The position numbers and the translations under genes are program-made. DNA of 64,000 bases from Aquamicrobium zhengzhouense (GTDB lineage: Bacteria; Pseudomonadota; Alphaproteobacteria; Rhizobiales; Rhizobiaceae). The stretch lies in assembly GCF_016124105.1 (NCBI RefSeq), contig NZ_JADGMQ010000010.1:1-64000 (forward strand), in the 5' to 3' direction. Positions 13,324 to 31,996 of this stretch are shown here, one piece after another (position 1 is the stretch's first letter; every line of letters begins with the position of its first letter). Below the pieces are notes generated by a model. It was not told the origin of the DNA. It saw only the letters and a program-made list of their open reading frames with translations, and did not search any database.

Positions 13324-13800
13324 TTATCTGGCGATCGGCAACAGTTCAGCGCGCTTTACCTGACCAAGCGCGAAGCTCGTTTCAATGGATGCGATGTTGT
13401 CGAGGCGCGTGAGTTTGTCCTTGATGAAGCGCTCGTAGGCCTCCAGATCCGCGGCAACGACACGCATCAGATAATCTCGCTGTCCCGTCATCAAATAGCA
13501 GTCCAGAACCTCCGGCCAGCGTGAGACCGCGTCTTCAAAGCGGTCCAGATCCTCTTCTCGCTGTCTCTCCAATTTGATCGAAGCGAAGGCACTGATCGGC
13601 AGCCCGACCTTCTTCTGGTCGATGATCGCTGCATAACCTTTGATGATGCCAGCCTGCTCCATCAGCCGCACCCGACGTGCGCAGGGGGAGGGAGAAAGGC
13701 CCACCTTTTCGGCAAGCTCGCCAATCGAGATCTTGCCATCCTCCTGAAGAGAACGAATAATTTTACGGTCGATAGCGTCCAGTTTCGGCATTGGCTGCAA
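13324..13800 (-). CDS. Lrp/AsnC-family transcriptional regulator
   Basis: A 158-residue feast/famine regulator. The N-terminal HTH (residues ~8-55) contains DRKIIRSLQEDGKISIGELA and GLSPSPCARRVRLMEQAGII. The C-terminal RAM ligand domain has VLDCYLMTGQRDYLMRVVA. Lrp proteins bind amino acids and usually control a divergent neighbour. The divergent gene here is an AceE-like E1, the same arrangement as mdeR-mdeB in Pseudomonas putida. The 122-base space between them holds AT-rich half-sites (CTTG/CAAG) that could be its operator, though I cannot define one firmly. Confidence 0.85.
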   Translation of the reverse strand: MQPMPKLDAIDRKIIRSLQEDGKISIGELAEKVGLSPSPCARRVRLMEQAGIIKGYAAIIDQKKVGLPISAFASIKLERQREEDLDRFEDAVSRWPEVLDCYLMTGQRDYLMRVVAADLEAYERFIKDKLTRLDNIASIETSFALGQVKRAELLPIAR

Positions 13801-13922
13801 TCATCATTCTTGAGCAATATCTTGGTCAATCAAGCTAAACTGCAGTCCACTTTCTAGCAAGATTGATCTGTTTCACCTCCTGAACAGGAGTAGCATCTCC
13901 CAAGGTAATGGGGAGCGAGTTG

Positions 13923-16376: not shown

Positions 16377-16784
16377 TCAGACCCGGCTGCGAGCCGCGAG
16401 AATTTCAACCTCGACCTTGAACTCTTCCCTCGTAAATCCGGAAACGATCATCAAGGTGGAAGCCGGTGCTGGCTGCGGAAACAGGCGGTCGCGAACATCC
16501 ATATATGGACGCATGTAAGCGCGGTCAGTCACATACGCATTGATGCGCACGACATCAGCGAAGCTCATTCCTGCAGCCTCCAGAATGGCCTTCGCATTCG
16601 CAAAGCAGAGTTCCGCTTGGGCAGCCGCATCCTCCGGAACATGAGCCTCAGGGCCGATCCCGAGCTGTCCCGAGCAAAACAGCATGTCCGTTCCTGCCTG
16701 CACGACGACTCCGTGGCTGTAGGCCGCAAATGGAGCAGGCATGGTCGAGGGAACGAGGTGTTCGAGTTGTTTCACATCAGTCAT
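16377..16784 (-). CDS. RidA/YjgF-family imine/enamine deaminase
   Basis: A 135-residue single-domain RidA protein: YSHGVVVQAGTDMLFCSGQLG and RINAYVTDRAYMRPYMDVRD, with the substrate-binding Arg in the latter. RidA hydrolyses reactive 2-aminoacrylate-type imines or enamines. It lies 21 bases after the otnI gene on the same strand, so it is the last gene of the acid-sugar operon. Its role there is not obvious. It could equally serve the neighbouring 2-oxoacid (MdeB-like) chemistry if read independently. Confidence 0.82.
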   Translation of the reverse strand: MTDVKQLEHLVPSTMPAPFAAYSHGVVVQAGTDMLFCSGQLGIGPEAHVPEDAAAQAELCFANAKAILEAAGMSFADVVRINAYVTDRAYMRPYMDVRDRLFPQPAPASTLMIVSGFTREEFKVEVEILAARSRV

Positions 16785-16805: not shown

Positions 16806-17579
16806 TCAGGCAGGTTTGAAGTTGCTGAGCCAGCCAAGGCCCGCAGCCGTCCCGTTACGCGGCTTGTATTCAGCACCGAAGTAGCCATTCCAGCCCGCTT
16901 TCTGCAATTCCGGAAGGAGGGAGCCGAAGTCGATCTCGCCGCTGTCAGGCTCTCCGCGATCCGGCACGGCTGCAAACTGGACGTGACCGACATTCTGTCT
17001 GTGGCGTACGAATTCCGCCATCGGATCGCGGCCAATCCTGCCGACATGGTAGCAGTCGAACATGATCTTGATGTTCTCGCGTCCTGCCTCGGCGATGATT
17101 GCGGATGCCAGGTCGTTATCGAGGAGAAAATAGTCCGGAGCATCGAACGGGTTCAGCGGCTCGATCAAGATTGTAATCCCATGTGGAGCCGCGTTGTCTG
17201 CTGCGTAGCGCAGGTTCTCGATGAACGTGTCTCGCGCTTGCGGATCGGCGGTCTTGCCGGCCATGACATGTATCGCGCCTGCGCCAATCTTCACCGCATA
17301 GGCCAAGGCATCGTCAATCGCTGCACGGGCATCTGCCTCGCGACCGGGCAATGCAGAAAGGCCGAACTCGCCCGCCGCAAGGTCGCCGCGGGAGGTGTTG
17401 AGACCAAGCACGGGAAGTCCGCTTTCATCGAGCGCAGCCTTCACCGCTGCCGGGTCGACCTCATAAGGCCAGTGCAGCTCGACTGCCTTGAACCCGGCCG
17501 CCTTCGCCTCGCGGACGGCGCCCGGAAGGGAGTGCTCCGTAAACAGGAAACCCAGATTGGCTGAAAAATCGATTGGCAA
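16806..17579 (-). CDS. otnI: 2-oxo-tetronate isomerase (hydroxypyruvate isomerase family)
   Basis: A 257-residue TIM-barrel isomerase (AP_endonuc_2 fold): FSANLGFLFTEHSLPGAVRE at the start, then ILIEPLNPFDAPDYFLLD and IMFDCYHVGR, with metal and acid residues Glu, Asp and His in those segments. Relatives were annotated as hydroxypyruvate isomerases (Hyi). In the DUF1537-kinase pathways the enzyme converts 2-oxo-tetronate to 3-oxo-tetronate. Its place next to otnC, otnK, ltnD and denD makes that role the best reading. Four bases separate it from otnC. Confidence 0.85.
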   Translation of the reverse strand: MPIDFSANLGFLFTEHSLPGAVREAKAAGFKAVELHWPYEVDPAAVKAALDESGLPVLGLNTSRGDLAAGEFGLSALPGREADARAAIDDALAYAVKIGAGAIHVMAGKTADPQARDTFIENLRYAADNAAPHGITILIEPLNPFDAPDYFLLDNDLASAIIAEAGRENIKIMFDCYHVGRIGRDPMAEFVRHRQNVGHVQFAAVPDRGEPDSGEIDFGSLLPELQKAGWNGYFGAEYKPRNGTAAGLGWLSNFKPA

Positions 17580-17582
17580 GGG

Positions 17583-18233
17583 TCAGTCCCATTCTACATT
17601 GAAGTGGTCAACGACATCGCGAACTTGCTCAGGCGTCAGGAGGCGAGGGCTCATGCCGCGGGTGAGCAGTGCCAAGCGCGCCGTCTCCTCAAGCTCCTCC
17701 ATCGAATAGACCGCAGCCTCCAGATCCTTTGCGGCTACAACAGGCCCGTGATTGGCCAGAAGAACCGCACTGCGCTTGCCGGCCAAGCCGCGAATAGCTT
17801 CGCCGATCGCCGCATCGCCTGGTCGAAAGTACGGCAGCAATTTCACCTTGCCGAGCCGCATGATCGAGTATGGTGTCAACGGTGGCAGGACATTGTCCGG
17901 GTCGGTGTCCGGCAGCATCGAGAGCGCTACGGAATGGCAGGAATGGAGGTGAACGATCGCTCCCGTCTTCGCGCCCCGAGTTTCATAGAACGCCGAGTGG
18001 AGCGGCATCTCCTTCGTCGGCGCATCACCCCCTATGTGGTTCCCCTTCTCATCGAAAAGGGACAGGCGGGCTGGATCGAGCGCCCCTAGAGAAGAGCCAG
18101 TGGGCGTGACAAGCAGCCTACCGTCTGAAAGGCGCGTCGAAATGTTGCCTGATGCTCCCCCCGTAAGACCGCGCTCGAAGATCGACCGCGCCATCGAGCA
18201 GATCTGCTCGCGAAGGATGGTTTCTTCGCTCAT
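17583..18233 (-). CDS. otnC: 3-oxo-tetronate 4-phosphate decarboxylase (class II aldolase family)
   Basis: A 216-residue class II aldolase/adducin-type protein. GLTGGASGNISTRL is the phosphate-binding N-terminal loop. The zinc ligands are in HLHSCHSVALS and LLANHGPVVA. In this pathway it decarboxylates 3-oxo-tetronate 4-phosphate to dihydroxyacetone phosphate. It overlaps otnK by four bases (18230-18233), showing tight coupling. Without context an L-fuculose-phosphate aldolase would be the alternative name. Confidence 0.86.
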   Translation of the reverse strand: MSEETILREQICSMARSIFERGLTGGASGNISTRLSDGRLLVTPTGSSLGALDPARLSLFDEKGNHIGGDAPTKEMPLHSAFYETRGAKTGAIVHLHSCHSVALSMLPDTDPDNVLPPLTPYSIMRLGKVKLLPYFRPGDAAIGEAIRGLAGKRSAVLLANHGPVVAAKDLEAAVYSMEELEETARLALLTRGMSPRLLTPEQVRDVVDHFNVEWD

Positions 18234-19486
18234 CTTCCATTCGCCATTGTTCTGAGGGCCCTGACGAAGAAGTCCTCAGTTCCGAAATTGCCGGACTTCA
18301 ACGTAAGTGCAAAGTTCTCTCCGGCCAGCCTTAGCGCAGGCACTCCCGGAGCGATCTCCGGGCCAACATCCATCGCTGTGCAGCCGAGGCCCTTCACCAC
18401 AGCGCCGGATGTTTCGCCACCGGCGGAGACGAGACGGGTAATGCCGATTTCCCTAGCTGCCGCGGCAATCTGGGCAAAAAAATCCTCGATCTTTTCAGCT
18501 ATGACTTCGGTGCCATATTTTGCCTGAGCATCCCGGACCTTGTCGGGATTTGCGGAGGAGTAGACCAAAGGCTCCTTGCCCAGATGTTCCTTGATCCAGG
18601 AAATCGCGAGGTCCGCAGTCATCTCCCCGGACATCAGCGCATCGGCCTCAATCTCAAGCGCGGGGTGATCAATTCGGTAGACGCCCACCTGGCCGCGGGT
18701 CGCGTTTGAGCAGGAGCCAGAAAGGATGAGACCCGGTCCCTCTGTTGGCTCGAAATTGACGCGACGATGTCCAATCAACCCCTTGCGACGGAAGTTTTCC
18801 GGCAAGCCGAGGGCAATGCCGGAACCCCCGGTAACGAGGGGTTGGTCGGCAACCGCTTCGCCGATGGCGTAAAGATCGTCATCGCTCAACGCGTCTACCA
18901 CGATAAAGCGGTGACCGTGCTCTTCCTCGCGTGCAAGCGCCTGCCAGATCACACAGCCGCCGCCGCGAACGTCCGAAAATCCTACATGGCCAACAGACGC
19001 ACTTGTCTGCCTTTGCAGCCAGCGCCGGATGTCCGGGTCGGTCATCGGCGTCAGCGGATGGGATTCCATGCCCGATTCATTGAGCAGCCGGTCATTCACG
19101 AAGAGATGCCCCTGATAGAGGCTTCGGCCTGCACCGGGAAACGCCGGACAGAACACGACGCGGCGCGCGCTCAGCGCGTCCGCCAGAGCCAACGCGACCG
19201 GGCCGATATTGCCCTGCGGCGTTGAATCGAATGTCGAGCAGTACTTGAACAGGAACTGCATGCAGCCCTGCTGCTGAAGCCAGCGCATTGCATCCAAGGA
19301 TTGCGCGACAGCCTCCTCAACAGGAAGGCTCCGCGTCTTGAGCGCTACAACCGCTGCTTCGACACCTTCCTCGGCACGCCCGGTCGGCACGCCGCTGTAA
19401 AGCGTCGTCGCCATGCCACCTTTGACCAGCGTGTTGGCCAGATCTGAAGAACCGGTGAAGTCATCGCCGATACAGCCCAGCAGCAT
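18230..19486 (-). CDS. otnK: 3-oxo-tetronate kinase (four-carbon acid sugar kinase, DUF1537)
   Basis: A 418-residue kinase with the two-domain DUF1537 architecture. The N-terminal substrate domain starts MLLGCIGDDFTGSSDLANTL. The C-terminal nucleotide domain contains LILSGSCSNATRGQV and RLVSAGGETSGAVVKGLGC. The family was reassigned as acid-sugar kinases. OtnK phosphorylates 3-oxo-tetronate at C4. It lies directly after ltnD and overlaps otnC. Confidence 0.9.
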   Translation of the reverse strand: MLLGCIGDDFTGSSDLANTLVKGGMATTLYSGVPTGRAEEGVEAAVVALKTRSLPVEEAVAQSLDAMRWLQQQGCMQFLFKYCSTFDSTPQGNIGPVALALADALSARRVVFCPAFPGAGRSLYQGHLFVNDRLLNESGMESHPLTPMTDPDIRRWLQRQTSASVGHVGFSDVRGGGCVIWQALAREEEHGHRFIVVDALSDDDLYAIGEAVADQPLVTGGSGIALGLPENFRRKGLIGHRRVNFEPTEGPGLILSGSCSNATRGQVGVYRIDHPALEIEADALMSGEMTADLAISWIKEHLGKEPLVYSSANPDKVRDAQAKYGTEVIAEKIEDFFAQIAAAAREIGITRLVSAGGETSGAVVKGLGCTAMDVGPEIAPGVPALRLAGENFALTLKSGNFGTEDFFVRALRTMANGR

Positions 19487-20398
19487 TTACTCTCCCCCGT
19501 TTGTCGGCGACGGAAGTTCAAGACCGGCCTGATCGCGATAGAGCTTGACCACAGCGACATCCCCCTCTCTTCCGAGCCCCTTTTCCGACGCGTCCCTGAA
19601 CCGGGCGAGCGCTGTTTTGGCGACAGGCAGCTCCAACGAAGATGCTGACGCAGCGGAAGTTACTATCCCGAGATCCTTAACAAAGATATCGACAGCCGAA
19701 TGTGGCCTGTAATCGCCTGCCGCGATGTAAGGTCCCCGGTTCTCAAACATCCATGAAGAGCCGGCACAACGCGGGATGACCTGCATGATCTGCTCGGCAT
19801 CAACGCCCTGAGAAAGGCCGAACGCAAATGCTTCCGCAGTGGCAGCGATGTGAACTCCTGCGAGGAGCTGATTGACGCTTTTCATCGCGGATCCCGGTCC
19901 CGCCTTGTCCCCAAGGCGAAATACCGTTTCGGCCATTGCTTCTAGTGCCGGCTGCGCTTTGGTGAAGGCCTCGGGCTTGCCAGAAGCCATGATCGAGAGT
20001 TTTCCTTGGGCCGCTCGTGCAGAACCGCCGGAGATCGGGGCATCAAGATACATGAGACCGAGAGCCTCGGCCCGCGCCTCAAAATCAACAGCCTGCTGAG
20101 CCGAAATGGTCGCGCAAGAGATGATCACCGCGCCCGGCTTCAATTTCGAGGCGAGGCCCTCGGTTCCAAAAATCGCTTCCTCGGTTTGGGCGGCATTGAC
20201 GACGACGATGATCGCCCCAGCAGCCGTTACGGCCGCAGCGTCGATATCGAGACTGCGCCCGCTTTCCTGACGAAAGCGAGATCGCGTCTCGGCGTTCAGA
20301 TCGAAGCCGTCAACTTCTATGCCTGCACGAAGCAACGATTGGCCCATTCCGTAGCCCATCGCGCCGAGTCCCATGAGAACAAAGCTGTTCTCCATCAT
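19487..20398 (-). CDS. ltnD: L-threonate dehydrogenase (beta-hydroxyacid dehydrogenase family)
   Basis: A 303-residue NAD-dependent dehydrogenase. The Rossmann motif is GLGAMGYGMGQSLLRAG, the substrate loop is DAPISGGSARAAQGKLSIMA and the catalytic Lys is in GSAMKSVNQLLAGVH. Sequence and neighbours match LtnD, which oxidises L-threonate to 2-oxo-L-threonate. Close paralogues act on 3-hydroxyisobutyrate or tartronate semialdehyde. Its stop abuts the kinase start and its own start touches the denD stop (20398). Confidence 0.86.
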   Translation of the reverse strand: MMENSFVLMGLGAMGYGMGQSLLRAGIEVDGFDLNAETRSRFRQESGRSLDIDAAAVTAAGAIIVVVNAAQTEEAIFGTEGLASKLKPGAVIISCATISAQQAVDFEARAEALGLMYLDAPISGGSARAAQGKLSIMASGKPEAFTKAQPALEAMAETVFRLGDKAGPGSAMKSVNQLLAGVHIAATAEAFAFGLSQGVDAEQIMQVIPRCAGSSWMFENRGPYIAAGDYRPHSAVDIFVKDLGIVTSAASASSLELPVAKTALARFRDASEKGLGREGDVAVVKLYRDQAGLELPSPTNGGE

Positions 20399-21387
20399 CA
20401 GCCCCCAATCTTTGGCGCGTAATCTTCCAGATACGCCTCTATGATGGCCTCAAAAGACGAATCCGCCTCGAAGCCAAGATCAAGCGCGCGTTTGGCATCA
20501 AAAGCCTGCGGCCAGGTCGAGATAATCGCCTCGATCGCCGGATCGGGCTGGTGATTGATCAAAGCTACCGCCTCATCCCCGGCGATTTTGCGCAATGCCT
20601 CGATCTCATCAGACACTGTGGCAGAGACGCCCGGCATCGTCATGTTCCGACGCTCGCCTATGAGGCTCGTATCGACCATTGCGGCATGTACCATGAATCC
20701 GATGGCTGCCCGCGGGCTCGCGAACCAATGGCGCACTGACGTGTCGACGGGAAGCACCGCCGCCTGTCCGGCTAGCGGCTCGCGCAATATGCTGGAGAAG
20801 AAGCCGGATGCCGCCGCGTTGGGCTTGCCCGGACGAATGCAGATCGTCGGGAGACGGATGCCGATTCCGTCAAAGAACCCCTTGCGACTGTAATCTGCCA
20901 GCAGCAACTCGCCGATAGCCTTTTGGGTGCCGTAGCTGGAACGGGGCGTGATGATGAAGTCATCGCTGATCACCTCTGGCAGCGGGGATCCGAAAACCGC
21001 CAGCGAAGACGTGAAAACGATGCGCGGAAAATATCCATCTTTCTCATGCGCGGCCCGTACCGCCTCGAAGAGGTAGCGGGTGCCGTCAAGATTGATGCTG
21101 TAGCCCTTGTCGAAGTCGCGTTCCGCCTCTCCAGACACGATGGCCGCGAGGTGGAAAATCACATCAGGCCGCGCTTCGATGAGAGCAACCGCGGCCGCGG
21201 GATCGGCGATGTCTGTCGCCCCCGTGGCGATCTCGACGTCGCCACCCTCAAGCTTCTTCGGCTCGATGATGTCGAATAACGACAGCTTGGCGATCTTCCG
21301 CGTTCCGACTTTGCCCTCGCGTATCAGCCTCTTCGCCAGACCGTCGCCGAGCATCCCCGCTGCACCAATGATGAGGCAGTGCACCAT
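20398..21387 (-). CDS. denD: D-erythronate dehydrogenase (NAD-dependent epimerase/SDR family)
   Basis: A 329-residue extended SDR. The cofactor motif is LIIGAAGMLGDGLAKRL and the active-site Tyr/Lys pair is in SSYGTQKAIGELLL. FTSSLAVFGSPLPEVISDD and RLPTICIRPGKPNAAASGFF are characteristic of DenD. It oxidises D-erythronate to 2-oxo-D-erythronate, which OtnI, OtnK and OtnC take to dihydroxyacetone phosphate. Having denD and ltnD together lets one lower pathway serve two acids. It lies 26 bases after the flavoprotein gene. Confidence 0.88.
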   Translation of the reverse strand: MVHCLIIGAAGMLGDGLAKRLIREGKVGTRKIAKLSLFDIIEPKKLEGGDVEIATGATDIADPAAAVALIEARPDVIFHLAAIVSGEAERDFDKGYSINLDGTRYLFEAVRAAHEKDGYFPRIVFTSSLAVFGSPLPEVISDDFIITPRSSYGTQKAIGELLLADYSRKGFFDGIGIRLPTICIRPGKPNAAASGFFSSILREPLAGQAAVLPVDTSVRHWFASPRAAIGFMVHAAMVDTSLIGERRNMTMPGVSATVSDEIEALRKIAGDEAVALINHQPDPAIEAIISTWPQAFDAKRALDLGFEADSSFEAIIEAYLEDYAPKIGG

Positions 21388-21413: not shown

Positions 21414-22643
21414 CTAGCGGGCACGTCCGCCAGACAATTCCTTCATACGCTGCGGCCCAGCGGCAATGTCCGCTTCCGTCGGGCTGACGCCCGCAGCGAG
21501 CAGCCGTCGGGCGACCATGTGATCTGCCGGTTTGTTGACCGAGTCGACCGCAATCAGTTCGTCACCACGGAAGTGGTAGACGGAAAAGGCACTATCCTCA
21601 GGCGAGCCGCTGACGAGCGCGCGATCTGCGTCAAAGCACAGGCCGGCCGTCTGGAGCTTCATGTCACCCTGATCCGACCAGAACCATGCCACCTCGTCAT
21701 AAGCTGTCTCACGTCCGACGAGCACACGCGCCAGGTGGCGCGCCTGATCGGTGGCGTTCTGGACCGATTCCAGCCTAACCCGTCGTTTTGCCTGCTTATG
21801 GTCATAGCTGACGCAGTCACCAATAGCCCAGATGCCGGCGGCAGATGACTGCAGGCTTTCATTAACGACGATGCCATTATCCAGCAAAAGCCCGGCGTCA
21901 CGAGCAAGTTCGACATTCGGGATAGCACCGATACCAAGCACCACAAGATCGGCAGCAATTGTGCGTCCGTCGGACGTTGTCACGGCACTCACACGCCCGT
22001 TTTCGCCCTCAAGGCCTGCAAGCTGCACATCTGTAAGGATGTCGATCCCTGCCTCACGGCTGCGCCGTTCAACATGTGCAGAGACGATCGGCGCAACCGA
22101 ACGGGCAAGAACCCTAGGCGCAGCTTCGATCAACGTGACCTTCTTGCCCAGGCCGACGAAGCTGTGGGCCATTTCCATGCCAATAAAGCCACCGCCGACA
22201 ATTGCGACGGAGTCGATCGAGTCGATCCTCTCGCGAATGCTCCTCGCGTCCATAATTGTACGGAGCGTTACGACGCCTTCCAGATCAACCCCGGGCAAAT
22301 CCGGGATCCGCGCCCGGGCCCCTGTTGCAAGTACCAGCTCGGAATAAGGCAAGACTTGGCCATCTGAGAGCTCAACCGTTTGAGCTGCAGCGTCAATCTT
22401 GATCGCCCGCACGCCGGAAACCAGCTCGACATTCGCATCCCGGTAAGCGTTTTCCGCCCGCAGTACCAATCCACCCGCGTCTGGCGACTTCAAATAGGAC
22501 TTTGACAACGGAGGGCGGTGATAGGGAAGATCCGGCTCGTCGCTGACCAGCACAATTTCCCCATCGTAGCCTTCCTGCCGGAGGCTGACGGAAAGCTGTG
22601 AGCCTCCATGTCCGGCGCCAACGATCACACTTCTTCTAGTCAT
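21414..22643 (-). CDS. FAD-dependent ferredoxin/rubredoxin-type reductase
   Basis: A 409-residue pyridine-nucleotide-disulfide oxidoreductase of the putidaredoxin/rhodocoxin reductase type. It has an FAD motif VIVGAGHGGSQLSVSLRQEG, an NAD motif VAIVGGGFIGMEMAHSFVGLG and WAIGDCVSYDH for FAD binding, plus the C-terminal reductase domain (VWFWSDQGDMKLQ-like region). Such enzymes pass electrons from NAD(P)H to a small ferredoxin serving a P450 or Rieske oxygenase, none of which is visible nearby. It leads the acid-sugar operon (26-base gap to denD), an unusual partner. It may serve an oxygenase elsewhere or the divergent N-heterocycle cluster. Confidence 0.83.
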   Translation of the reverse strand: MTRRSVIVGAGHGGSQLSVSLRQEGYDGEIVLVSDEPDLPYHRPPLSKSYLKSPDAGGLVLRAENAYRDANVELVSGVRAIKIDAAAQTVELSDGQVLPYSELVLATGARARIPDLPGVDLEGVVTLRTIMDARSIRERIDSIDSVAIVGGGFIGMEMAHSFVGLGKKVTLIEAAPRVLARSVAPIVSAHVERRSREAGIDILTDVQLAGLEGENGRVSAVTTSDGRTIAADLVVLGIGAIPNVELARDAGLLLDNGIVVNESLQSSAAGIWAIGDCVSYDHKQAKRRVRLESVQNATDQARHLARVLVGRETAYDEVAWFWSDQGDMKLQTAGLCFDADRALVSGSPEDSAFSVYHFRGDELIAVDSVNKPADHMVARRLLAAGVSPTEADIAAGPQRMKELSGGRAR

Positions 22644-22777
22644 GTCACCTCATCCGCGGGACGCACGCCACTACACGAGCGGCCCCCCAAGTTCTCCAGG
22701 CTTCGCCCTTGGATGACGGTTCTCCACCGCTCTCTAATCTTCGTTACATATCTCCCGCCAGATTTAAACAATTAGTT

Positions 22778-22793
22778 TGACCAATTGATCAGA
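22778..22793 (+). promoter_or_regulatory. RutR-like operator overlapping a possible promoter
   Basis: The sequence TTGACCA-AT-TGATCAG matches the E. coli RutR box TTGACCA-NN-TGGTCAA at 12 of 14 fixed positions. It lies about 150 bases upstream of the creatininase-family gene. The TTGACC can also serve as a -35 element, with AGTAAT at 22801-22806 (17-base spacing) as a weak -10. A RutR-type regulator is encoded at the end of the same cluster (29081). Repression by occlusion, relieved by a pyrimidine-like ligand, is the inferred mechanism. It also lies 135 bases from the divergent flavoprotein gene. Confidence 0.5.
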
Positions 22794-22941
22794 TCGTTTA
22801 GTAATTATCGGGGAGTTGCTAGCGACGGACGGGGAACCGGGGAGTCTCACTGGCAAATGGGGAACATCTTGCCGGCCATGGTGCCGGTTGCGACTGCTGT
22901 CGACCCGAACGCGTCGCATCGCATGACAAAGGGGAACGCAT

Positions 22942-23748
22942 TTGAAACGTTACTGGGCCGAGTATACGAGCGAGGAGTTTTCTCGTCTCGACCATGAGAA
23001 CATTGTAGCCGTCCTGCCGGTCGGCGCTATCGAGCAACATGGCCCCCATCTGCCCCTGAATGTCGATGCTGCAGTGGTCGACGGGATGACGAAAGAAATC
23101 GTCAAGCGCCTGCCAGACACCAGCAAGGTGCTCTTCCTGCCCACGCAGCCAGTGGGCAAAAGCAATGAGCACAGTCGCTATCCCGGTACGCTCACCTTCT
23201 CAGCTCAGACCCTGATCTCGATGTGGTGCGAGCTCGGCGCCTGCGTCGCGGCGTCCGGCGTGCGAAAACTGGTCCTGTTCAACGGACATGGCGGCCACAT
23301 CTCGACGATGGATATCGTCGCTCGCGAGCTGCGCGTGCGACACGACATGCTGGTTTTCTCCGTCAACTGGTTCGGCTTTGGAATGCCGGAGGGCGTTTAT
23401 TCGGCCCATGAGGACAAGCACGGCATTCACGCCGGCGACATGGAAACCTCGGTCATGCTCGAGTTCCACCCTGACCTCGTGGACATGAGCAAGGCGCAGA
23501 ATTTTGCGACACTCACCGAGACATTCGAGAAAGAGTTCAAGCACATCAAGCTCGCCGGAGCGAAGCCGGGCTGGCAGATGCATGACATGAACCCTTATGG
23601 CGCCGCTGGCAATGCGCTCGCCGCCACCGCCGAGAAAGGTCGCAAGACCATCGATTTTGCAGCTGATCGGCTGGTGGAAGTCCTGGAGGAAATCCAGCGC
23701 GCTCCGCTGTCCTGGCTCGACAATACACCAGCTTGGAAGGTGAAGTGA
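22942..23748 (+). CDS. Creatininase-family hydrolase
   Basis: A 268-residue creatinine amidohydrolase-fold protein. Metal-binding motifs are present: LPVGAIEQHGPHLPLNVDAA (Glu, His, Asp), LFNGHGGH and HAGDMETSVMLEF. The family cleaves cyclic amides (creatinine) and related C-N bonds, for example in pterin or pyrimidine intermediates. The substrate is unknown here. Start is TTG with GGGGAA five bases upstream. No ATG fits. Its stop overlaps the ATPase start (ATGA type), so it is the first gene of the 22.9-29 kb operon. Confidence 0.85.
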   Translation: MKRYWAEYTSEEFSRLDHENIVAVLPVGAIEQHGPHLPLNVDAAVVDGMTKEIVKRLPDTSKVLFLPTQPVGKSNEHSRYPGTLTFSAQTLISMWCELGACVAASGVRKLVLFNGHGGHISTMDIVARELRVRHDMLVFSVNWFGFGMPEGVYSAHEDKHGIHAGDMETSVMLEFHPDLVDMSKAQNFATLTETFEKEFKHIKLAGAKPGWQMHDMNPYGAAGNALAATAEKGRKTIDFAADRLVEVLEEIQRAPLSWLDNTPAWKVK

Positions 23749-24554
23749 TGACGCAAGCGAACGCCACGGCCACTTCCCGCCCGCTGATCGAAATCCAAAA
23801 CGTCTATAAACAGTACAATACCGGCGTTATCGCAGTCAGCGACATGTCGCTTGACATTAAGGACGGGCAGTTCGTCTCTTTCCTCGGACCATCGGGCTGC
23901 GGCAAGAGCACCGCGCTACGCATGATTGCCGGCCTTGCGGAAGTCTCGGCCGGCAAGATCCTCGTAAACGGACACGAGCCCGGCAATGCTGCGGGCCCGC
24001 AGGATATCGGCTTTGTCTTCCAGGAGCCGACACTGATGCCCTGGGCCACAGTGTTCGACAATGTCTACCTGCCGCTGCGTCTTGGCGGCATTTCACGCAA
24101 GGATGCGGCTCCGCGCGTGGAAGAGGTTCTGTCGCAAGTCGGCCTGTCCAAATTCGCCGACGCCTATCCTCGCGAACTCTCTGGCGGCATGAAGATGCGT
24201 GTTTCGATCGCCCGCGCCGTCGTCACCAAGCCGCGCCTTCTTCTCATGGACGAGCCGTTTGCCGCTCTCGATGAGATGACCCGCTTCAAACTGAACAACG
24301 ACGTCCTGCGCCTGTGGCAGGAGAATGGGCTGACCGTCATCTTCGTTACCCACTCGGTATACGAGTCGGTCTACCTGTCGAACCGTGTCGTCGTCATGGC
24401 TGCACGACCGGGGCGTGTCGTCGCCGACATCGCGATCCCCGGCACTTATCCGCGGGCGGAAAATTTCCGCACCACACCTGAGTATAACGACAGCTGCAAG
24501 ATGGTGGCGGACGCGCTCAACGCGACGCTCGGCAGCGACGACATCGATCACTGA
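23748..24554 (+). CDS. ABC transporter ATP-binding protein (NitT/TauT family)
   Basis: A 268-residue ATPase. Walker A is GPSGCGKST (about residue 50), the Q-loop is FVFQEPTLMPWATVFDN, the signature is LSGGMKMRVSIARAV, Walker B is LLLMDEPFAALDE and the switch His is in VTHSVYES. This is the standard SsuB/TauB/ThiZ pattern. It energises the permease that follows. Start ATG 23748 overlaps the previous stop. An upstream in-frame ATG at 23733 would lie inside the hydrolase gene. Confidence 0.88.
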   Translation: MTQANATATSRPLIEIQNVYKQYNTGVIAVSDMSLDIKDGQFVSFLGPSGCGKSTALRMIAGLAEVSAGKILVNGHEPGNAAGPQDIGFVFQEPTLMPWATVFDNVYLPLRLGGISRKDAAPRVEEVLSQVGLSKFADAYPRELSGGMKMRVSIARAVVTKPRLLLMDEPFAALDEMTRFKLNNDVLRLWQENGLTVIFVTHSVYESVYLSNRVVVMAARPGRVVADIAIPGTYPRAENFRTTPEYNDSCKMVADALNATLGSDDIDH

Positions 24555-24565
24555 GGGCCGCGAAC

Positions 24566-25399
24566 ATGACCACCCAGACACCGATCCTCAACTCATCGCA
24601 GAACCGCCGGGCGCGCATCGAAAAGCGCAAGGCTGTTATCATGCCGACCCTGGCAATCGTCTTGGCGCTGCTCGTATGGGAAGCACTCGTCCGTTATTAC
24701 GAAGTGCCACATTATCTCATTCCCGCTCCGTCACTGATCGCTCAAACGCTGATCAAGGATGGTCCGTCGCTGCTGAACTCAATGATGTTCACAGTGAAGC
24801 TGACGCTGATCTCGCTGGCGCTTGCCATTATCGGCGGGGTGCTGATCGGCATGGTGTTCGCGCTTTCGCGCACCATCGAGATGAGCTTCTTCCCGTTTGC
24901 GGTCATCTTGCAGGTCACGCCGGTCGTCGCGATTGCGCCGCTGATCCTCATCTACGTCCATGACACATTTTCCGCGTTGCTGATCTGCGCCTGGATCGTC
25001 GCCTTCTTCCCGATTCTGTCCAACACGGTGATCGGTCTTCGCAGTGCCGATCACAATTTGCGCGACCTTTTCAAGCTCTACCGGGCGACCCCGTTGCAGC
25101 GCCTGCGCTTCCTGCTGGCACCTAGCGCATTGCCGTACTTCATGGCGGCCCTGAAAGTCGCCGGTGGCCTCGCTCTGATCGGAGCGGTGGTTGCCGAGTT
25201 CGTCGCCGGTACCGCTGGCCAGAACACCGGCCTTGCCTCGCGCATTCTGGAATCCAGCTTCCGCAACGAGATTCCGCGCATGTTCGCCGCGCTACTTCTC
25301 GTATCCGCACTGGGCATCGTCATCTTCCTTGTCACCAGCTGGCTGTCGCGTCGTGTCCTCGGACATTGGCACGAGAGCGAGATCCGCCGGGAATCGTGA
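24566..25399 (+). CDS. ABC transporter permease (NitT/TauT family)
   Basis: A 277-residue inner-membrane permease with about six helices and the BPD_transp_1 core. The entry motif YYEVPHYLIPAPSLIAQTL is typical of TauC/SsuC/ThiX. The coupling loop appears as LFKLYRATPLQRLRFLLAPSA. It forms the channel for the NMT1-type binding protein at 28021. It is followed by an amidohydrolase whose GTG start overlaps its stop (25396-25399). Confidence 0.88.
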   Translation: MTTQTPILNSSQNRRARIEKRKAVIMPTLAIVLALLVWEALVRYYEVPHYLIPAPSLIAQTLIKDGPSLLNSMMFTVKLTLISLALAIIGGVLIGMVFALSRTIEMSFFPFAVILQVTPVVAIAPLILIYVHDTFSALLICAWIVAFFPILSNTVIGLRSADHNLRDLFKLYRATPLQRLRFLLAPSALPYFMAALKVAGGLALIGAVVAEFVAGTAGQNTGLASRILESSFRNEIPRMFAALLLVSALGIVIFLVTSWLSRRVLGHWHESEIRRES

Positions 25400-26625
25400 T
25401 CGTGCAGCAAGAGGGCGCAACAACCACTTTCATCGGCGTAACGATCGCAGGTCTTGCAGGAACGCATGATCTGACCGTCGAACGCGGCAAGATCGTCGCG
25501 CTCGCGCCCTCTCGACAAGCGGGTGGTGGTTTCATCACCCCGCTTCTGGCCGACTGTCATGTCCATCTCGACAAAACCTACACGATCGAACGCATACGCA
25601 GGTCCGGTCCGGCGAAGGTCGATTGTCTGTTCGACGCAATTGACCTGATGGAAATGGACCGGCCCAATTGGGATGGATCCGATATCCGTGAACGTGCCTC
25701 GCGTGCCCTCGCAACCGCCTATGAAGCCGGCGTTGGTGTCATGCGCACGCATATCGACTGGACGACACCTGAGGTCCCCACCGCTTGGCACGTCCTCAAC
25801 GACTTGAAGGCTGAGTGGAAGGGACGGATCCACATCGAGACCGCCGCGCTCGTGCGCGGCGATATCGTTCTGGCAGCAGGCGAGGGGATAGCAAGGCGAG
25901 TTGCACAAGACGGAGGCGTCTTCGGTGCATTCTTCTACCGCAATCCGGATATCGTGGATGCTGTCGAGGCTATGTTCAGCCTTGCTTCCCGCCACGATCT
26001 GAAGCTCGACTTCCATGTCGATGAAGGTTTAGAGGCCGAAGCCGACGGCTTTTCATTGATCGTTGACGCAACCAAGCGACACAAGATGGCCGGACGGGTG
26101 CTTTGCGGGCACGCCTGCTCCTTGTCTCTGCGCGATGATGACGAGCTTGAACGTATCCTAAGCGCAGCGGCAGAGGCGGGTGCGGCTCTCGTCTCCTTGC
26201 CGACCAGCAATCTTTATCTCCAAGACCGCATCGGCGGGCGTTCGCCACGCCGCCGCGGCCTTGCGCCAGTCAAAGAAGCCCGCGCTGCGGGAATGGACGT
26301 GATGCTCGCGTCGGACAACGTCGGAGATGCCTTCTATCCCTGGGGCGACTATGATCCGCTTTCGATCCTTCGCCTTGCAGCTCCCGTTGCCCATGTCGAT
26401 CCAGACACCTGGATCGATGCAATTACCACGCTGCCTATGAAAATTTGCGGTGGCGATGATGGCGCTTTCCTAAGGGTTGGAGGCGCTGCCGATTTCATCT
26501 GGCACGAAGCCGAGGACGCCCACGATCTGACGATGAAGCCGCAGGCGCGGCGCGTTGTGTTTCGCGACGGGCGCAGCTCAGGTGATGCCACAACCAATGG
26601 AGACAAGCATGAACGTGGCAACTAA
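25396..26625 (+). CDS. Amidohydrolase, cytosine-deaminase-like
   Basis: A 409-residue metal-dependent hydrolase. Metal ligands are seen in ADCHVHLDKT (His-X-His), DFHVDEGLE, LCGHACSL and MLASDNVGDAFYPWG (Asp), the CodA pattern. CodA-type enzymes deaminate cytosine, isoguanine, creatinine or related rings, so it may remove an amino group from the imported ring. Start GTG at 25396 overlaps the permease stop. The last 17 bases overlap the next gene's start. The operon position, between a transporter and an FAD oxidase, points to a catabolic role. Confidence 0.83.
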   Translation: MIVQQEGATTTFIGVTIAGLAGTHDLTVERGKIVALAPSRQAGGGFITPLLADCHVHLDKTYTIERIRRSGPAKVDCLFDAIDLMEMDRPNWDGSDIRERASRALATAYEAGVGVMRTHIDWTTPEVPTAWHVLNDLKAEWKGRIHIETAALVRGDIVLAAGEGIARRVAQDGGVFGAFFYRNPDIVDAVEAMFSLASRHDLKLDFHVDEGLEAEADGFSLIVDATKRHKMAGRVLCGHACSLSLRDDDELERILSAAAEAGAALVSLPTSNLYLQDRIGGRSPRRRGLAPVKEARAAGMDVMLASDNVGDAFYPWGDYDPLSILRLAAPVAHVDPDTWIDAITTLPMKICGGDDGAFLRVGGAADFIWHEAEDAHDLTMKPQARRVVFRDGRSSGDATTNGDKHERGN

Positions 26626-27991
26626 GCCTGCTCGCGCGTATGACTGGGACGCTTTCCGGGCGGCGATCGAGGGCATCCGCATCTATGACGATCCCAAGGC
26701 CGTTGAGCTGCGTTCGCGCGACTATTACTGGTACAGCCCGATCCTGACGGACGACATTGGTCACTGCAAAGGTGACCTCATCGTGATTCCTGCCGATCAG
26801 GAGGAAGTTGGCCGCGTTGCAGCTGCGGCTGCGCGCCTTCGGATTCCGATCACGCTGCGTGGCGGCGGCACAGGCAATTACGGCCAGTGCATCCCTCTCG
26901 AAGGGGGTATCGTTCTCGACATGACCAAGCTCGACAAGGTCATCTCGATCGAGAAAGGCCGCGTGCGTGTCGAAGCTGGTGCCCGCATTTCGCGCCTTGA
27001 TGACGCTGTTCGGGAAACCGGGCAGGAACTGATGATGTATCCGTCCACCCGCCGGATCGCGACGATCGGCGGTTTTCTCTCGGGCGGCTCCGGCGGCATT
27101 GGCTCGCTTCGCCACGGCATGCTGCGAGATGACGGAAATGTCTTCTCGGTGAAGGTCATGACCGTCGAGGAGGAGCCGAGGATCATTGAGCTCCACGGCA
27201 ATGACATCCAGAAGGTGCAGCACGCCTACGGAACCAACGGCATCATCCTCGAGATCGAGCTCGGCCTGACGGACGCGACGGACTGGATCCACACTGCCGC
27301 CCTCTTCCCGGACTACGACGCGACGCTGCGCTTCTGCCTCAAGGCGATGGAAGACAAGCTGGACTGCTATCTTCTGACGACCGTCGATCGCCGCTTTGCA
27401 CGCTTCTACACGAAATTCGGTGATCTATTCCCGTCGGACCGGGACGCGGTGTTTGCAATGATTGCGCCGCAGGAACGCGAGCGCTTTGCAGCCCTCGCTG
27501 CAGAGTTCGGCGGTACGATCTCGTTCTCCATGACCTTGGACGAACTCCATCAGGCAGGGCTTCAGCCTGCCTATGAATGCGGCTGGAACCACACGACGCT
27601 GACAGCCCTTAAGGCTGAAGAAGGATGGACGTACCTTCAGGTCGAATATCCGCGTCCTTTTGATCCCGAAATCGTGCGCGCCCAGATGCAGCGTTACGGT
27701 GACGAGCAGTACATGCACCACGAAATGGCGCGTCTACAAGGCGAACAGCAAATCTTCGGTCTCCCTCTCGTGCGGTACAAGAACCGCGCGGAGATGTACC
27801 GTGTCATACGTGAAATTGAAGAGCTTGATGGTTGCACCATTTACGATCCGCACGCCTACACCATTGAAGATGGCGGCATGAAGCAGATCGACACGGTGCA
27901 GATCGACTTCAAGCGACAGGCAGATCCTTTCGGACTTCTCAATCCAGGGAAGACGCGAGGCTGGACGGCTGACATGGCCTCCACAGGTTGA
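26609..27991 (+). CDS. FAD-linked oxidoreductase (VAO/GlcD superfamily)
   Basis: A 460-residue flavoprotein. The PP-loop FAD site is in ITLRGGGTGNYGQCIPLEGG (about residue 80) and the second FAD segment in IATIGGFLSGGSGGIGSLRHG. The C-terminus ends DPFGLLNPGKTRGW, typical of the VAO-type FAD_binding_4 family. Family members oxidise hydroxy acids, alcohols or aromatic side chains. No covalent-flavin His is obvious to me. GGAGA precedes the ATG at 26609, and the start overlaps the amidohydrolase. Substrate unknown. It is probably the oxidative step of the pathway. Confidence 0.8.
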   Translation: MNVATKPARAYDWDAFRAAIEGIRIYDDPKAVELRSRDYYWYSPILTDDIGHCKGDLIVIPADQEEVGRVAAAAARLRIPITLRGGGTGNYGQCIPLEGGIVLDMTKLDKVISIEKGRVRVEAGARISRLDDAVRETGQELMMYPSTRRIATIGGFLSGGSGGIGSLRHGMLRDDGNVFSVKVMTVEEEPRIIELHGNDIQKVQHAYGTNGIILEIELGLTDATDWIHTAALFPDYDATLRFCLKAMEDKLDCYLLTTVDRRFARFYTKFGDLFPSDRDAVFAMIAPQERERFAALAAEFGGTISFSMTLDELHQAGLQPAYECGWNHTTLTALKAEEGWTYLQVEYPRPFDPEIVRAQMQRYGDEQYMHHEMARLQGEQQIFGLPLVRYKNRAEMYRVIREIEELDGCTIYDPHAYTIEDGGMKQIDTVQIDFKRQADPFGLLNPGKTRGWTADMASTG

Positions 27992-28020
27992 ACTGGGCTA
28001 TCTACGGGAGACAAATTCTA

Positions 28021-29031
28021 ATGAAGACTGTATTCAAGGCGGCGCTTGCTGCCGCATCGATGATCGTGTCGGCGCAGGTCGCCTACGCGCTCGACAAGGT
28101 GACCGTCGGCACCAACTGGCTGGCTCAGGCTGGCCACGGCGGCTTCTATCAGGCGCTGGCGGACGGCACCTATGAGAAACACGGCCTGGACGTGACCATC
28201 GATATGGGTGGCCCGCAGGTCAACAACCGCCCGATGCTGGCGGCTGGGCGCCTCGACTTCCTGCTCACAGGCAACCTCTTGCTGACGTTCAACAACGTCG
28301 CCAACGACGTTCCGACCACGGTGGTTGCAGCGTTCTACCAGAAGGATCCGCAGGTCCTGATGGCGCATGAAGGTGCATACAAAGATTTTCAGGACCTGAC
28401 GAACGCACCGGCAATCCTGCTCGCCAAGGACGGTCAGTTCTCTTACTGGCTCTGGCTGGTCAAGGAGTTCGGTTTCCGCGACGAACAGATCCGCCCATAT
28501 GGCTATAGCCTCGCCCAGTTCCTGAGCGACGAGAAGATGGTTCAGCAGGCATACGCCACTGCGGAGCCGCTTTATGCAGCCAAGGAAGGCGCGAAGCCGG
28601 TCAGCTACCTGCTTGCTGATTATGGCTACAACACCTATGCGAACACCGTAGAAACGCGCACTGAACTGATCGAGAAAAACCCGGATCTCGTCCAGCGCTT
28701 TGTCGATGCGACCATCATCGGTTGGTACAACTTCCTCTATGGTGACCGCAGCGCTGCATACGAACTCATCCTTAAGGACAACCCGGACATGAAGGCCGAG
28801 ACCCTCGATGCAGAGCTCGCGCGCATCATGGAGCTGGACCTGATCGACAGCGGTGAAGCGGCTGAGAACGGTATTGGCGCAATCTCGATGGAGCGCGTGA
28901 AGGATTTCTACGACCTGGCCGTCGCTTCGGGCATCGTGGAGAAAGCCGATCTTGACCTGTCCAAGGTTGCCACCGACCAGTTCGTCAACAAGGGCGTTGG
29001 CATTGACGTCAAGAAGCAGTTGAAGCCATAA
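28021..29031 (+). CDS. ABC transporter substrate-binding protein, NMT1/ThiY-like
   Basis: A 336-residue periplasmic binding protein with a signal peptide (MKTVFKAALAAASMIVSAQVAYA). Family motifs are VTVGTNWLAQAGHGGFYQAL and VTIDMGGPQVNNRPMLAAG. Proteins with this opening are common beside pyrimidine (dihydropyrimidinase/RutR) genes in alphaproteobacteria, and the fold is shared with hydroxymethylpyrimidine-binding ThiY. A pyrimidine-like ligand is therefore inferred. The permease and ATPase are two genes upstream. A terminator follows. Confidence 0.83.
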   Translation: MKTVFKAALAAASMIVSAQVAYALDKVTVGTNWLAQAGHGGFYQALADGTYEKHGLDVTIDMGGPQVNNRPMLAAGRLDFLLTGNLLLTFNNVANDVPTTVVAAFYQKDPQVLMAHEGAYKDFQDLTNAPAILLAKDGQFSYWLWLVKEFGFRDEQIRPYGYSLAQFLSDEKMVQQAYATAEPLYAAKEGAKPVSYLLADYGYNTYANTVETRTELIEKNPDLVQRFVDATIIGWYNFLYGDRSAAYELILKDNPDMKAETLDAELARIMELDLIDSGEAAENGIGAISMERVKDFYDLAVASGIVEKADLDLSKVATDQFVNKGVGIDVKKQLKP

Positions 29032-29040
29032 CGGAAGAAA

Positions 29041-29075
29041 CGGAGCGGCACCTTCAAGGTCCGCTCCGCCTTTTT
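29041..29075 (+). terminator. Rho-independent terminator after the NMT1-type operon
   Basis: A stem GGAGCGG(C)ACC / GGTCCGCTCC with a TTCAA loop is followed by five T. It sits between the binding-protein stop and the regulator's ATG (29081), so the regulator may be transcribed by read-through or from its own promoter. Confidence 0.75.
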
Positions 29076-29080
29076 GGGCT

Positions 29081-29740
29081 ATGAGCAAGGTTCTGAGCGA
29101 AGATAATAACGACCCCGAACTCAGCGCACGCGACAAGATTGTCGAGCGCCGAAAAGCTATACTTGCTGCTATTCATGAAGCGGCTATCGAAGAATTTGCC
29201 ACCCGCGGCGTTGAGGGCACATCAACCCAGTCAATCGCGCGACGTGCTGGTCTGACAAAACCGCAACTCCATTACTACATCGCCTCCAAGGAAGACCTTT
29301 ACGAGGACATTCTCGTGCAGATCCTTGAGGAATGGCGCGAGTTGTTCATCGATGCCACCACCGGTGAAGGCCCTGGCGAGATCATTCGTGCCTATATCCG
29401 CAAGAAGCTCGAGTTCAGCCGTTCCAAGCCGAAGGCTTCTCGGGTCTTCACCAATGAAATCGCACGCGGCGCTCCCGTTTTGGGCAAGCACTGGGCGCCC
29501 CATGTTGATGCTACCCGCTCGGGCGTCGCACTGATCCAGTCCTGGGTCGATGAAGGCAAGATTCGCCCGATCGACCCGCTCCTGTTCCATATGCATATGT
29601 GGGCAGTGACGCAGCACTACGCGGACTTCGACGCTCAGGTGCGCCGCATGATGGGCATCGAAGAAGGCCAGGAGATCGACTTTGATCGGGTCGAAAAAGA
29701 GGTGACAAGCCTCTTCCTTCGCAGTTGCGGACTGGAATAG
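29081..29740 (+). CDS. TetR-family regulator, RutR-like
   Basis: A 219-residue repressor. The HTH is residues ~30-75 (AAIEEFATRGVEGTSTQSIA, GLTKPQLHYYIASKEDLYEDIL). The C-terminal part matches the RutR/YcdC ligand domain: ASRVFTNEIARGAPVLGKHW and FHMHMWAVTQHYADFDAQV. RutR binds uracil or thymine and represses pyrimidine-use genes. A RutR-like box sits upstream of the operon's first gene. The cofactor here may be another pyrimidine-like ring. The start codon lies six bases after the terminator's T-run with no clear ribosome site, so the exact start is uncertain. Confidence 0.83.
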   Translation: MSKVLSEDNNDPELSARDKIVERRKAILAAIHEAAIEEFATRGVEGTSTQSIARRAGLTKPQLHYYIASKEDLYEDILVQILEEWRELFIDATTGEGPGEIIRAYIRKKLEFSRSKPKASRVFTNEIARGAPVLGKHWAPHVDATRSGVALIQSWVDEGKIRPIDPLLFHMHMWAVTQHYADFDAQVRRMMGIEEGQEIDFDRVEKEVTSLFLRSCGLE

Positions 29741-30186
29741 TCCGACCGTCCACTGCGCGTTCTTGACGAAAGCCTGCCGCTGGGTGAGCCGCACAAGGTC
29801 ACCCCGTAGAACAATTTTTGTTTACCTTTTGCCTCGTTTGTAGGATTTTCGTTCCGCTTCAGCCTCGAAATATGGTTGCTGGGAACTCATCTTTTCTCCC
29901 GACCTCGTGCATATTGGCGCTGTTCTTGGATAGGATTTTTGCTGTGCCGATTTTCAACGACCTTATGCCACGGGCTGTCGCAACGCACCGCCTTTGCGCG
30001 CTCATGTGTATGCGTTGAACTGATCGTACAATTTCGATACCGCATGGCCCCGCGGTGTCGAAACCGGCAGGACGCGGCAGAACTTGCGTCCAAACCCTAT
30101 TCAGGAACGGCTTCCCTCGCACAGGTTCGAGCCGAATTGTAAGCATAGCCCGACGTCAACGGGCGTTGCGCAGATGGAAGATGGAA
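29741..30186 (+). other. Intergenic region, no gene seen
   Basis: The 446 bases between the RutR-like gene and metN contain only short reading frames of atypical composition. I looked for a SAM riboswitch because metNIQ follows and could not recognise the SAM-II or SAM-I core. The sequence is more AT-rich in its first third. A promoter for metN must lie here, but I could not place it. Confidence 0.4.
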
Positions 30187-31296
30187 ATGCTCAACACAGT
30201 GCAGACGAATTCACCGCCACAGTCGGCGTTGGCAGATAGTGATAGTGTGCCCGATATTGTCAGACTCGAAGGTGTCGGGAAGGTTTTCCCCGCAACCCGC
30301 AAGAGTTCTGCCGTCACCGCACTTTCTTCGATCGACCTTTCCGCACCGAAAGGCTCCATCACCGCCATCATCGGGCGATCCGGCGCCGGCAAGTCGACGC
30401 TTATCCGCCTGGTAAATGGGTTGGAACGACCAAGCTCTGGCCGGGTTCTCGTAGATGGCGAAGACATTGCGCAACTGCCTGAAGACCGTCTGCGCCACAT
30501 CCGCCGCTCTATCGGCATGATCTTTCAGCACTTTAATCTTCTGTCCTCGCGAACCGTCTTCGACAACATTGCCCTACCGCTGGAAATTGGCGGCATGGCG
30601 AGGAAGGAGATCGCCGAACGCGTGACGCCTCTGCTGGAGCTTGTTGGCCTCGCTGACAAGCGTGATCGCTACCCGGCCGAATTGTCGGGCGGACAAAAGC
30701 AGCGCGTGGGCATTGCAAGAGCCCTTGCAACGCGCCCGAAACTCCTGCTTTCCGACGAGGCAACCTCCGCTCTCGACCCGGAAACGACCCAGTCCGTTCT
30801 GGAGCTTTTGAAGCGCATCAACAGCGAACTTGGCCTGACGATCCTTCTCATCACCCACGAGATGGAAGTCGTGAAGTCGATCGCCGACAACGTCGCGGTG
30901 ATTGACGGCGGCAAGATTGTGGAGCGCGGCTCGACCTTCGATGTCTTCACACATCCGCAGCATCACACGACAAAGGTCCTGTTGTCAGGCGTGCCAGGCA
31001 TGCAGCTCCCTGCCTATGCGCAAGCGCACCTTTCGCAAGAACGCAGGGAAGGGGCAGAGGTTGTGCTCCGCATCGTTTTTTCCGGACCACACGCGACCGA
31101 TCCGGTATTGTCGCGGCTCACCGGCGAGCTGGGCGTGAGCCTCAACATCCTTGGCGGCGCGGTGGACGAAATCGCGGGCAAGCCATTTGGCACTCTTTTC
31201 GTTTCCTTCCTTGCCGACGAAGCTCGTCTCGAACGCGTCCGTTCAACTCTTGCCGGCCTTAACCTGACCACGGAGGTGCTTGGATATGTCGCCTGA
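30187..31296 (+). CDS. metN: Methionine ABC transporter ATP-binding protein
   Basis: A 369-residue ATPase of the MUT family. Walker A is [13 protein letters not shown], the Q-loop is [17 protein letters not shown], the signature is [15 protein letters not shown] and Walker B is [14 protein letters not shown]. The C-terminal NIL domain (about 285-365: [39 protein letters not shown]) binds methionine and shuts the transporter when the cell is replete. Start: GGAAG is six bases before ATG 30187. An ATG two codons earlier overlaps that site. It is followed by overlapping metI. Confidence 0.9.
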
Positions 31297-31951: not shown

Positions 31952-31996
31952 CTGCCATCCAAAATACTGCTCACTTCACTCACATGGAGCTATTAC

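Follow-up and report, generated by a model that had tools for sequence, protein, structure and literature searches.

Two divergent operons of Aquamicrobium zhengzhouense with a probable role in pterin catabolism

The window analysed here is a stretch of 64,000 nucleotides (nt) from Aquamicrobium zhengzhouense (assembly GCF_016124105.1, contig NZ_JADGMQ010000010.1, positions 1 to 64,000 of the forward strand). It contains two divergent operons, which face a common RutR-type site. Comparison of their sequences and predicted structures suggests that this operon pair probably serves pterin (folate-type) catabolism. Pterins, in which a pyrimidine and a pyrazine ring are fused, provide the ring system of folate (vitamin B9). 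A first-pass annotation of the same DNA had proposed a catabolic unit for a pyrimidine-like ring, starting at 22778. The proposed ring was close, since a pterin contains a pyrimidine, but the ring itself is best read as a pterin. The start was wrong, because the unit also includes the divergent operon, which runs from 22643 to 16377.

The rightward operon is a single run of seven genes on the plus strand. It begins with a creatininase-family amidohydrolase (22942..23748, TTG start; PF02633, 245.8 bits, 5.1e-73), followed by the ATPase (23748..24554) and the permease (24566..25399) of a taurine/nitrate-type ATP-binding cassette (ABC) importer, both assigned by profile matches and by homologues in the loci of relatives. 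Next come a cog0402-type amidohydrolase (25402..26625, GTG start), proposed as a pterin deaminase from its fold, its residues and the gene order of the Variovorax homologue, and a VAO-fold flavoprotein (FAD_binding_4; 26609..27991), a putative flavin oxygenase of the 6v42 family according to phmmer and Foldseek. An NMT1/THI5-type periplasmic binding protein (28021..29031; PF09084, 5.4e-19), for which the PDB yielded weak relatives only, and a TetR regulator with a YcdC/RutR-type C-terminus (29081..29740) complete the run. Profile matches confirmed the gene set and order given earlier, namely creatininase family, NMT1 importer, amidohydrolase, flavoprotein and RutR-type regulator. The successive junctions are a 1-nt overlap, an 11-nt gap, a 2-nt gap, a 17-nt overlap, a 29-nt gap and a 49-nt gap. 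The four-base overlaps described in the first-pass annotation do not occur in this operon, where the overlaps are of 1 and 17 nt and the gaps of 2-49 nt; the spacing remains operon-like.

Flavoprotein and deaminase

The best sequence relative of the flavoprotein in the PDB is 6v42 (phmmer E 1.3e-117; next chain 1.1e-15). The same entry was the top Foldseek match of the predicted model (predicted local distance difference test, pLDDT, 91.5), with a template modelling score of 0.90 and 42% identity, and the two proteins are homologous over their full length. The PDB title of 6v42 is 'Crystal structure of the flavin oxygenase with cofactor bound involved in folate catabolism'. This is a substrate class other than the one first proposed for the oxidase, and it speaks against a pyrimidine. 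The flavoprotein of locus L095 matches 6v42 at 678 bits, which links the 6v42 type to the gene cassette; that of Variovorax (L073) matches at 355 bits. The close relative of the 6v42/6v43 enzyme in L095 lies in the same kind of cassette as the window flavoprotein. However, L095 has a LysR regulator and an NAD(P)H oxidoreductase, whereas the window has a TetR/RutR-type regulator, a ferredoxin reductase and a tetronate module.

The predicted model of the amidohydrolase (pLDDT 93) has CodA of E. coli, a Klebsiella 5-methylcytosine deaminase and AtzC as its nearest folds. The metal-binding and catalytic residues of the cog0402 type are retained: H53, H55, H205, H237 and D305 in 46/46 aligned relatives, and E208 in 44/46. 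We take the catalytic positions in CodA numbering to be H61, H63, H214, E217, H246 and D313, and the cytosine-pocket positions to be Q156 and D314. Q156 aligns to R152 of the window protein, at a position that is variable in the family; D314 aligns to N306, which is Asn in 46/46 aligned relatives. Likeness to cytosine deaminase was thus found in the overall fold, but two positions of the cytosine pocket are changed. The protein also misses the cytosine deaminase model NF005759 (PRK07583), with 317.3 bits against a cut-off of 403.

A pterin deaminase of 399 amino acids (aa) was cloned from Variovorax sp. F1 by You et al. (PMC9513972). Both this enzyme and Arad3529 of Agrobacterium radiobacter K84 are, like the window protein, cog0402-type enzymes of about 400 aa. 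For the cloning, a primer was set in a conserved endoribonuclease gene that follows the deaminase counterparts in V. paradoxus, and the F1 and V. paradoxus S110 deaminases share 76.7% identity (PMC9513972). The Variovorax homologue of the window amidohydrolase shows this arrangement, with a RidA gene downstream. The cassette amidohydrolase of V. paradoxus in L073 has 398 aa, and its gene shares 4 nt with the RidA gene (endoribonuclease L-PSP family) that comes next. In 3/3 Variovorax genomes, each with 3-4 amidohydrolase paralogues, a RidA match lies beside the cassette copy only. Between L068 and L073, the cassette deaminases share 75% identity, near the value for F1 and S110, and the Variovorax cassette copies are 40-42% identical to the window amidohydrolase.

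Conservation of the cassette and weighing of the substrate ring

A scan with one genome per species gave at least 584 confirmed relatives, of which the best 80 were used, a biased sample; together with five plasmid loci and the window they form a set of 86 loci. Neighbourhoods were tallied in the 70 loci with more than 6 kilobases (kb) before and more than 4 kb after the flavoprotein, 16/86 short-flank loci being left out. Since the gene calls of GC-rich loci contain antisense artefacts, presence was scored by tblastn, over at least half of the query and within 12 kb of the flavoprotein. The creatininase-family gene was present in 62 of the 70 loci, the amidohydrolase in 62 and the three ABC genes in 60, and all of these were found together in 51; this co-conservation supports the single unit proposed earlier. 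RidA was found in 56 loci, TetR in 33 and LysR, weak homologues included, in 14. The cassette of creatininase-family protein, NMT1 importer, deaminase, flavin oxygenase, RidA and candidate electron donor recurs across Proteobacteria. No description of the operon was found in open-access PMC titles and abstract starts, among the matches listed.

More distant cassettes, rearranged and with differing partners, were seen on plasmids of Pantoea (L119), Agrobacterium (L120) and Comamonadaceae (L121), each with RidA, creatininase family, importer and flavoprotein. The incomplete gene table of a Klebsiella pneumoniae locus (L118) contains RidA, importer and flavoprotein. The Frigidibacter flavoprotein (L041) is 81% identical to that of the window, and a phage-type integrase follows the cassette (L041:14129-15316); a recent transfer is possible there.

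Of four candidate electron donors, one or more were present in 60/70 loci: an NAD(P)H oxidoreductase alone in 31, a ferredoxin reductase alone in 10, a PDR/VanB-type reductase alone in 8, and combinations or ferredoxin alone in 11. The distance between the NAD(P)H oxidoreductase and the flavoprotein is at most 3 kb in 33/37 loci. Interchangeable reductases beside the flavoprotein would be sensible if this enzyme needs electrons from outside. A cytochrome P450 or Rieske oxygenase that might partner the ferredoxin reductase was sought among ten neighbour proteins (L041, L048, L050, L051, L062, L082 and L085), and none was found. The creatininase-family protein reaches 96.6 bits against the creatininase model TIGR04448, below the cut-off of 235. 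This family also includes the amidase ArfB, which acts on a 5-formylaminopyrimidine, and the ArfB reaction is a chemical precedent for the amide hydrolysis proposed below.

Several observations weigh against a pterin substrate. The function of 6v42 is taken from the depositor's title, and a search of open-access PMC turned up no accompanying paper. The evidence that the Variovorax cassette amidohydrolase is the ortholog of the F1 pterin deaminase is circumstantial, being based on length and gene order. L091, a more distant cassette relative, passes NF005759 (558 vs 403 bits). According to the F1 paper, this strain accumulates deaminopteroate and its cell extract degrades little of it, so that ring opening was not seen in F1 (PMC9513972). 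In the tally, none of the electron donors was seen in 10/70 loci, and RidA was absent in 14/70. The cassette-linked ferredoxin of Nitratireductor is missing from the window cluster; a 68% homologue of it adjoins folP/folB/folK elsewhere in the genome (L134:7905-8303; G000:C1:478907-479224).

A different bicyclic or purine-like N-heterocycle might be degraded by the same chemistry. The window flavoprotein is just 42% identical to 6v42. In some relatives there is also a Rieske-type oxygenase, or a further deaminase akin to 8-oxoguanine deaminase, which could mean that versions of the cassette are adapted to different rings. Rieske-type homologues, recognised by motif and a weak family match, lie near the cassette in six more distant relatives (L085, L091, L102, L104, L108 and L116). 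However, no particular alternative ring is indicated, and the findings on the deaminase and on the flavoprotein alike point to pterins, which makes such a substrate unlikely for the window. Creatinine, hydroxyectoine, homarine, mycosporines, fava pyrimidines and fructosazines were considered by literature look-up only, and none suited both the enzymes and the sugar-acid genes. The second amidohydrolase beside the cassette of L088 (L088:13656-15092), a relative of 8-oxoguanine deaminase, passes the NF009059 model; clustered relatives of it occur in L098 and L114. It is possibly a deaminase for another ring.

If pterin is the substrate, the same may hold for genes recorded as 'cytosine deaminase' or 'creatininase family' where they adjoin NMT1-type importers and this flavoprotein; examples are found in Rhizobium and Rhodobacterales records.

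RutR-type site, regulator and pyrimidine genes

The RutR-type box placed ahead of the operon by the first-pass annotation was located at 22777..22792, between the divergent operons. This candidate operator, TTGACCAATTGATCAG, agrees at 12/14 positions with the presumed RutR consensus, TTGACCANNTGGTCAA. In the 4.07-Mb genome, TTGACCANTTGRTCAR has a match without mismatch only at the window site; with up to two mismatches, 27 rows were returned vs 12 for the reversed control. A promoter scan gave 0 sigma-70-like sites. In other species, too, the orthologous operon has similar sites upstream. When the 300 bp before the creatininase-family gene were scored for sites with at least 10 of 14 matches, these were found in 30/35 loci with a TetR homologue vs 5/35 without (Fisher 1.9e-9, a value that ignores kinship), in support of a conserved RutR-type site. 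Three of the five TetR-less loci with a site (L047, L071 and L078) are short contig pieces. Among random 400-bp pieces of the window, a score of 10 was reached in 338/2000 and a score of 12 in 11/2000; pieces containing the site itself would explain about 12.

The window TetR misses both RutR cut-offs (TIGR03613, 161.9 vs 368; NF011584, 130.3 vs 230), and is better described as a RutR paralogue. An apparently complete reductive pyrimidine operon lies on contig C1, separate from the window locus. It encodes PreA, a glutamate-synthase-like partner, dihydropyrimidinase, a hydantoinase/carbamoylase-family amidase and a RutR-like regulator. This regulator reaches 241 bits against TIGR03613, and is thus closer to RutR than the window TetR, although it too is below the cut-off of 368. 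RutR-type sites with two mismatches each stand just before the first gene of the pyrimidine operon and beside the regulator gene (C1:20513 and C1:25546). The genome thus has a RutR-like regulator devoted to pyrimidines, on C1, and a second one at the window locus that has diverged further. RutA has 0 matches in the genome, and PreA and dihydropyrimidinase are not among the proteins of the window operon, being encoded on C1. The earlier conclusion that the locus represents neither the Rut nor the reductive pathway is consequently supported. Its wider statement that dihydropyrimidinase, pyd and rut genes are missing is correct for the locus and, as regards RutA, for the genome, but not genome-wide, given the reductive operon on C1.

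These results bear directly on the proposal of a pyrimidine, hydantoin or creatinine-type catabolic operon. The RutR-family regulator and its site, the cytosine deaminases among the nearest folds, the creatininase Pfam family and the distant relative L091, which passes the NCBIfam 'cytosine deaminase' cut-off, are all in its favour. However, the flavoprotein is homologous to 6v42, the cytosine-pocket positions are altered (R152 and N306), and the window proteins miss the curated cut-offs for creatininase (96.6 vs 235 bits), cytosine deaminase and RutR. Moreover, reductive pyrimidine degradation is encoded by the separate operon on C1, which carries a RutR-like protein of its own and a pair of RutR-type sites. 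A substrate of this kind is thus quite improbable. Compared with the Rut pathway and RutR, the window shares a RutR-like TetR C-terminal domain, a RutR-type operator and a RidA-family protein, but the genome lacks a RutA match and the regulator is well below the RutR cut-offs. The reductive pyrimidine operon likewise has a RutR-like regulator with RutR-type sites, but it forms a separate locus with PreA, dihydropyrimidinase and amidase.

Tetronate module and proposed pathway

The divergent operon is close-packed on the minus strand, with gaps of at most 30 nt. Its first gene encodes a ferredoxin reductase of the HcaD/AndAa type (21414..22643), proposed as the electron donor from profile matches and from its divergent position beside the cassette in relatives; this position is kept in Rhizobiaceae and in several Rhodobacterales loci. 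Then follow D-erythronate dehydrogenase (20398..21387; NF043036, 389.6 bits, cut-off 325), L-threonate dehydrogenase (19487..20398; NF043037, 388.6 bits, cut-off 350), 3-oxo-tetronate kinase (18230..19486; NF043035, 548.2 bits, cut-off 350), 3-oxo-tetronate 4-phosphate decarboxylase (17583..18233; NF043034, 301.9 bits, cut-off 250) and a protein of the 2-oxo-tetronate isomerase/hydroxypyruvate isomerase family (16806..17579; NF043033, 264.8 bits, below the cut-off of 325). The final gene, after a gap of 21 nt, encodes a RidA-family protein (16377..16784; PF01042, 6.9e-23), which is 56% identical to the cassette RidA of L034. In likeness to the D-erythronate/L-threonate pathway, 4/5 of the tetronate enzymes pass their curated equivalog cut-offs, and the isomerase falls short. 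The window copy differs in its setting: it lies between the ferredoxin reductase and RidA, divergent from the pterin cassette, and faces the same site.

A pathway can be proposed from these assignments. The NMT1-type importer would take up the pterin. The amidohydrolase would remove its 2-amino group to give a lumazine, a step with family-level support. The 6v42-type flavin oxygenase, whose family assignment comes from the PDB title, may then attack the pyrazine ring, with the ferredoxin reductase as its likely electron donor. The creatininase-family hydrolase might cleave the amide or lactam formed by ring oxidation, and RidA might remove imines or enamines. If opening of the pyrazine in the deaminated pterin separates C6 from C7, and the amide at N5 is hydrolysed, C6 would leave as the carboxyl group of the side chain. 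The released acid would consist of C6 and the three-carbon side chain: neopterin (1'S,2'R) would yield (2R,3R)-2,3,4-trihydroxybutanoate, which is D-erythronate, and monapterin (1'S,2'S) would yield the (2R,3S) acid, which is L-threonate. The adjacent tetronate module would burn this acid to dihydroxyacetone phosphate. The TetR protein, as a putative repressor at 22777-22792, would free both operons on binding a pterin-derived ligand.

The fit of the neopterin and monapterin products to the substrates of the two dehydrogenases is suggestive only, because both enzymes also serve ordinary C4 sugar-acid pathways. The conversion of the pterin side chain to D-erythronate or L-threonate for this module may be regarded as a fair guess that falls a little short of even. 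The unified scheme, in which neopterin and monapterin are mineralised through a pterin-sensing RutR paralogue, ring opening and the tetronate module to dihydroxyacetone phosphate, is put forward tentatively. If it is true, the presence of both sugar-acid dehydrogenases would follow from the configurations of the side chains in the two natural series of pterins.

Gene order in relatives argues for a functional connection of the module with the cassette. In the Ochrobactrum-type loci L040, L043 and L053, the ferredoxin reductase and RidA are direct neighbours; in the window the tetronate genes sit between these two. In Variovorax (L067, L070 and L073), the transcription order is (threonate dehydrogenase,) erythronate dehydrogenase, kinase, decarboxylase, isomerase, deaminase and RidA, and the deaminase gene overlaps both the isomerase gene and the RidA gene by 4 nt. 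Partly the same tetronate arrangement is found in Frigidibacter L041, without the ferredoxin reductase, and in Paenochrobactrum L045. On the flavoprotein tree, 13/86 rows carry at least two module genes, in two separate clades. The presence of the module requires 7 changes on this tree vs 12.4 after shuffling, and 0/500 shuffles were as low, a result to which near-copies contribute. The window 3-oxo-tetronate kinase is the only match in its genome; in five Variovorax genomes, the cassette-linked kinase is the only close homologue, all others being at most 27% identical.

The module could also be a mere neighbour of a pterin/folate pathway, serving for example plant ascorbate breakdown products, while the side chain goes elsewhere. 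This is a real possibility, since several results count against the pterin side chain as its substrate. At least two of the five tetronate genes lie near the cassette in 12/70 well-flanked loci, so most cassette relatives lack the module within reach. Tetronate genes were not found nearby in the orthologous loci of Ochrobactrum, Paracoccus and Rhizobium, and near the Nitratireductor cassette there are just the two dehydrogenases, 2/5 of the set. In five other cassette-bearing genomes, a kinase homologue lies away from the cassette neighbours in 3 and none was found in 2. Five stretches ahead of the Variovorax tetronate genes were scanned for a RutR-type site, and none with at least 11 matches was found. 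D-erythronate/L-threonate gene pairs are an ordinary sugar-acid pathway, and L-threonate is known to arise from ascorbate (PMC12540250). On the other side stand the close-packed run of the window module between two cassette genes, the run shared with deaminase and RidA in Variovorax, and the sole or sole close kinase copies described above.

The breakdown of folates and pterins in soil and in the sea is poorly understood. The Variovorax F1 paper of 2022 covers deamination and glutamate release; in its available part, the operon, ring opening and a regulator are not treated, and the further degradation of the products is left open (PMC9513972). The present cassette is widespread and combines a flavoenzyme that would attack the ring, a candidate step for amide cleavage, a regulator whose site is defined and a predicted exit for the carbon; it thereby makes the question of pterin degradation directly testable.

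Two genes next to the divergent operon are possibly linked to the unit. An Lrp/AsnC regulator (13324..13800, minus strand) has homologues that adjoin the same cassette in other loci. A pyruvate dehydrogenase E1/transketolase-like enzyme of 800 aa (13908..16310, plus strand) has homologues of 66-67% identity near the cassette in L034, L035, L052 and L058. A MetN/MetI/MetQ-type methionine ABC importer (30172-32779) directly follows the TetR gene.

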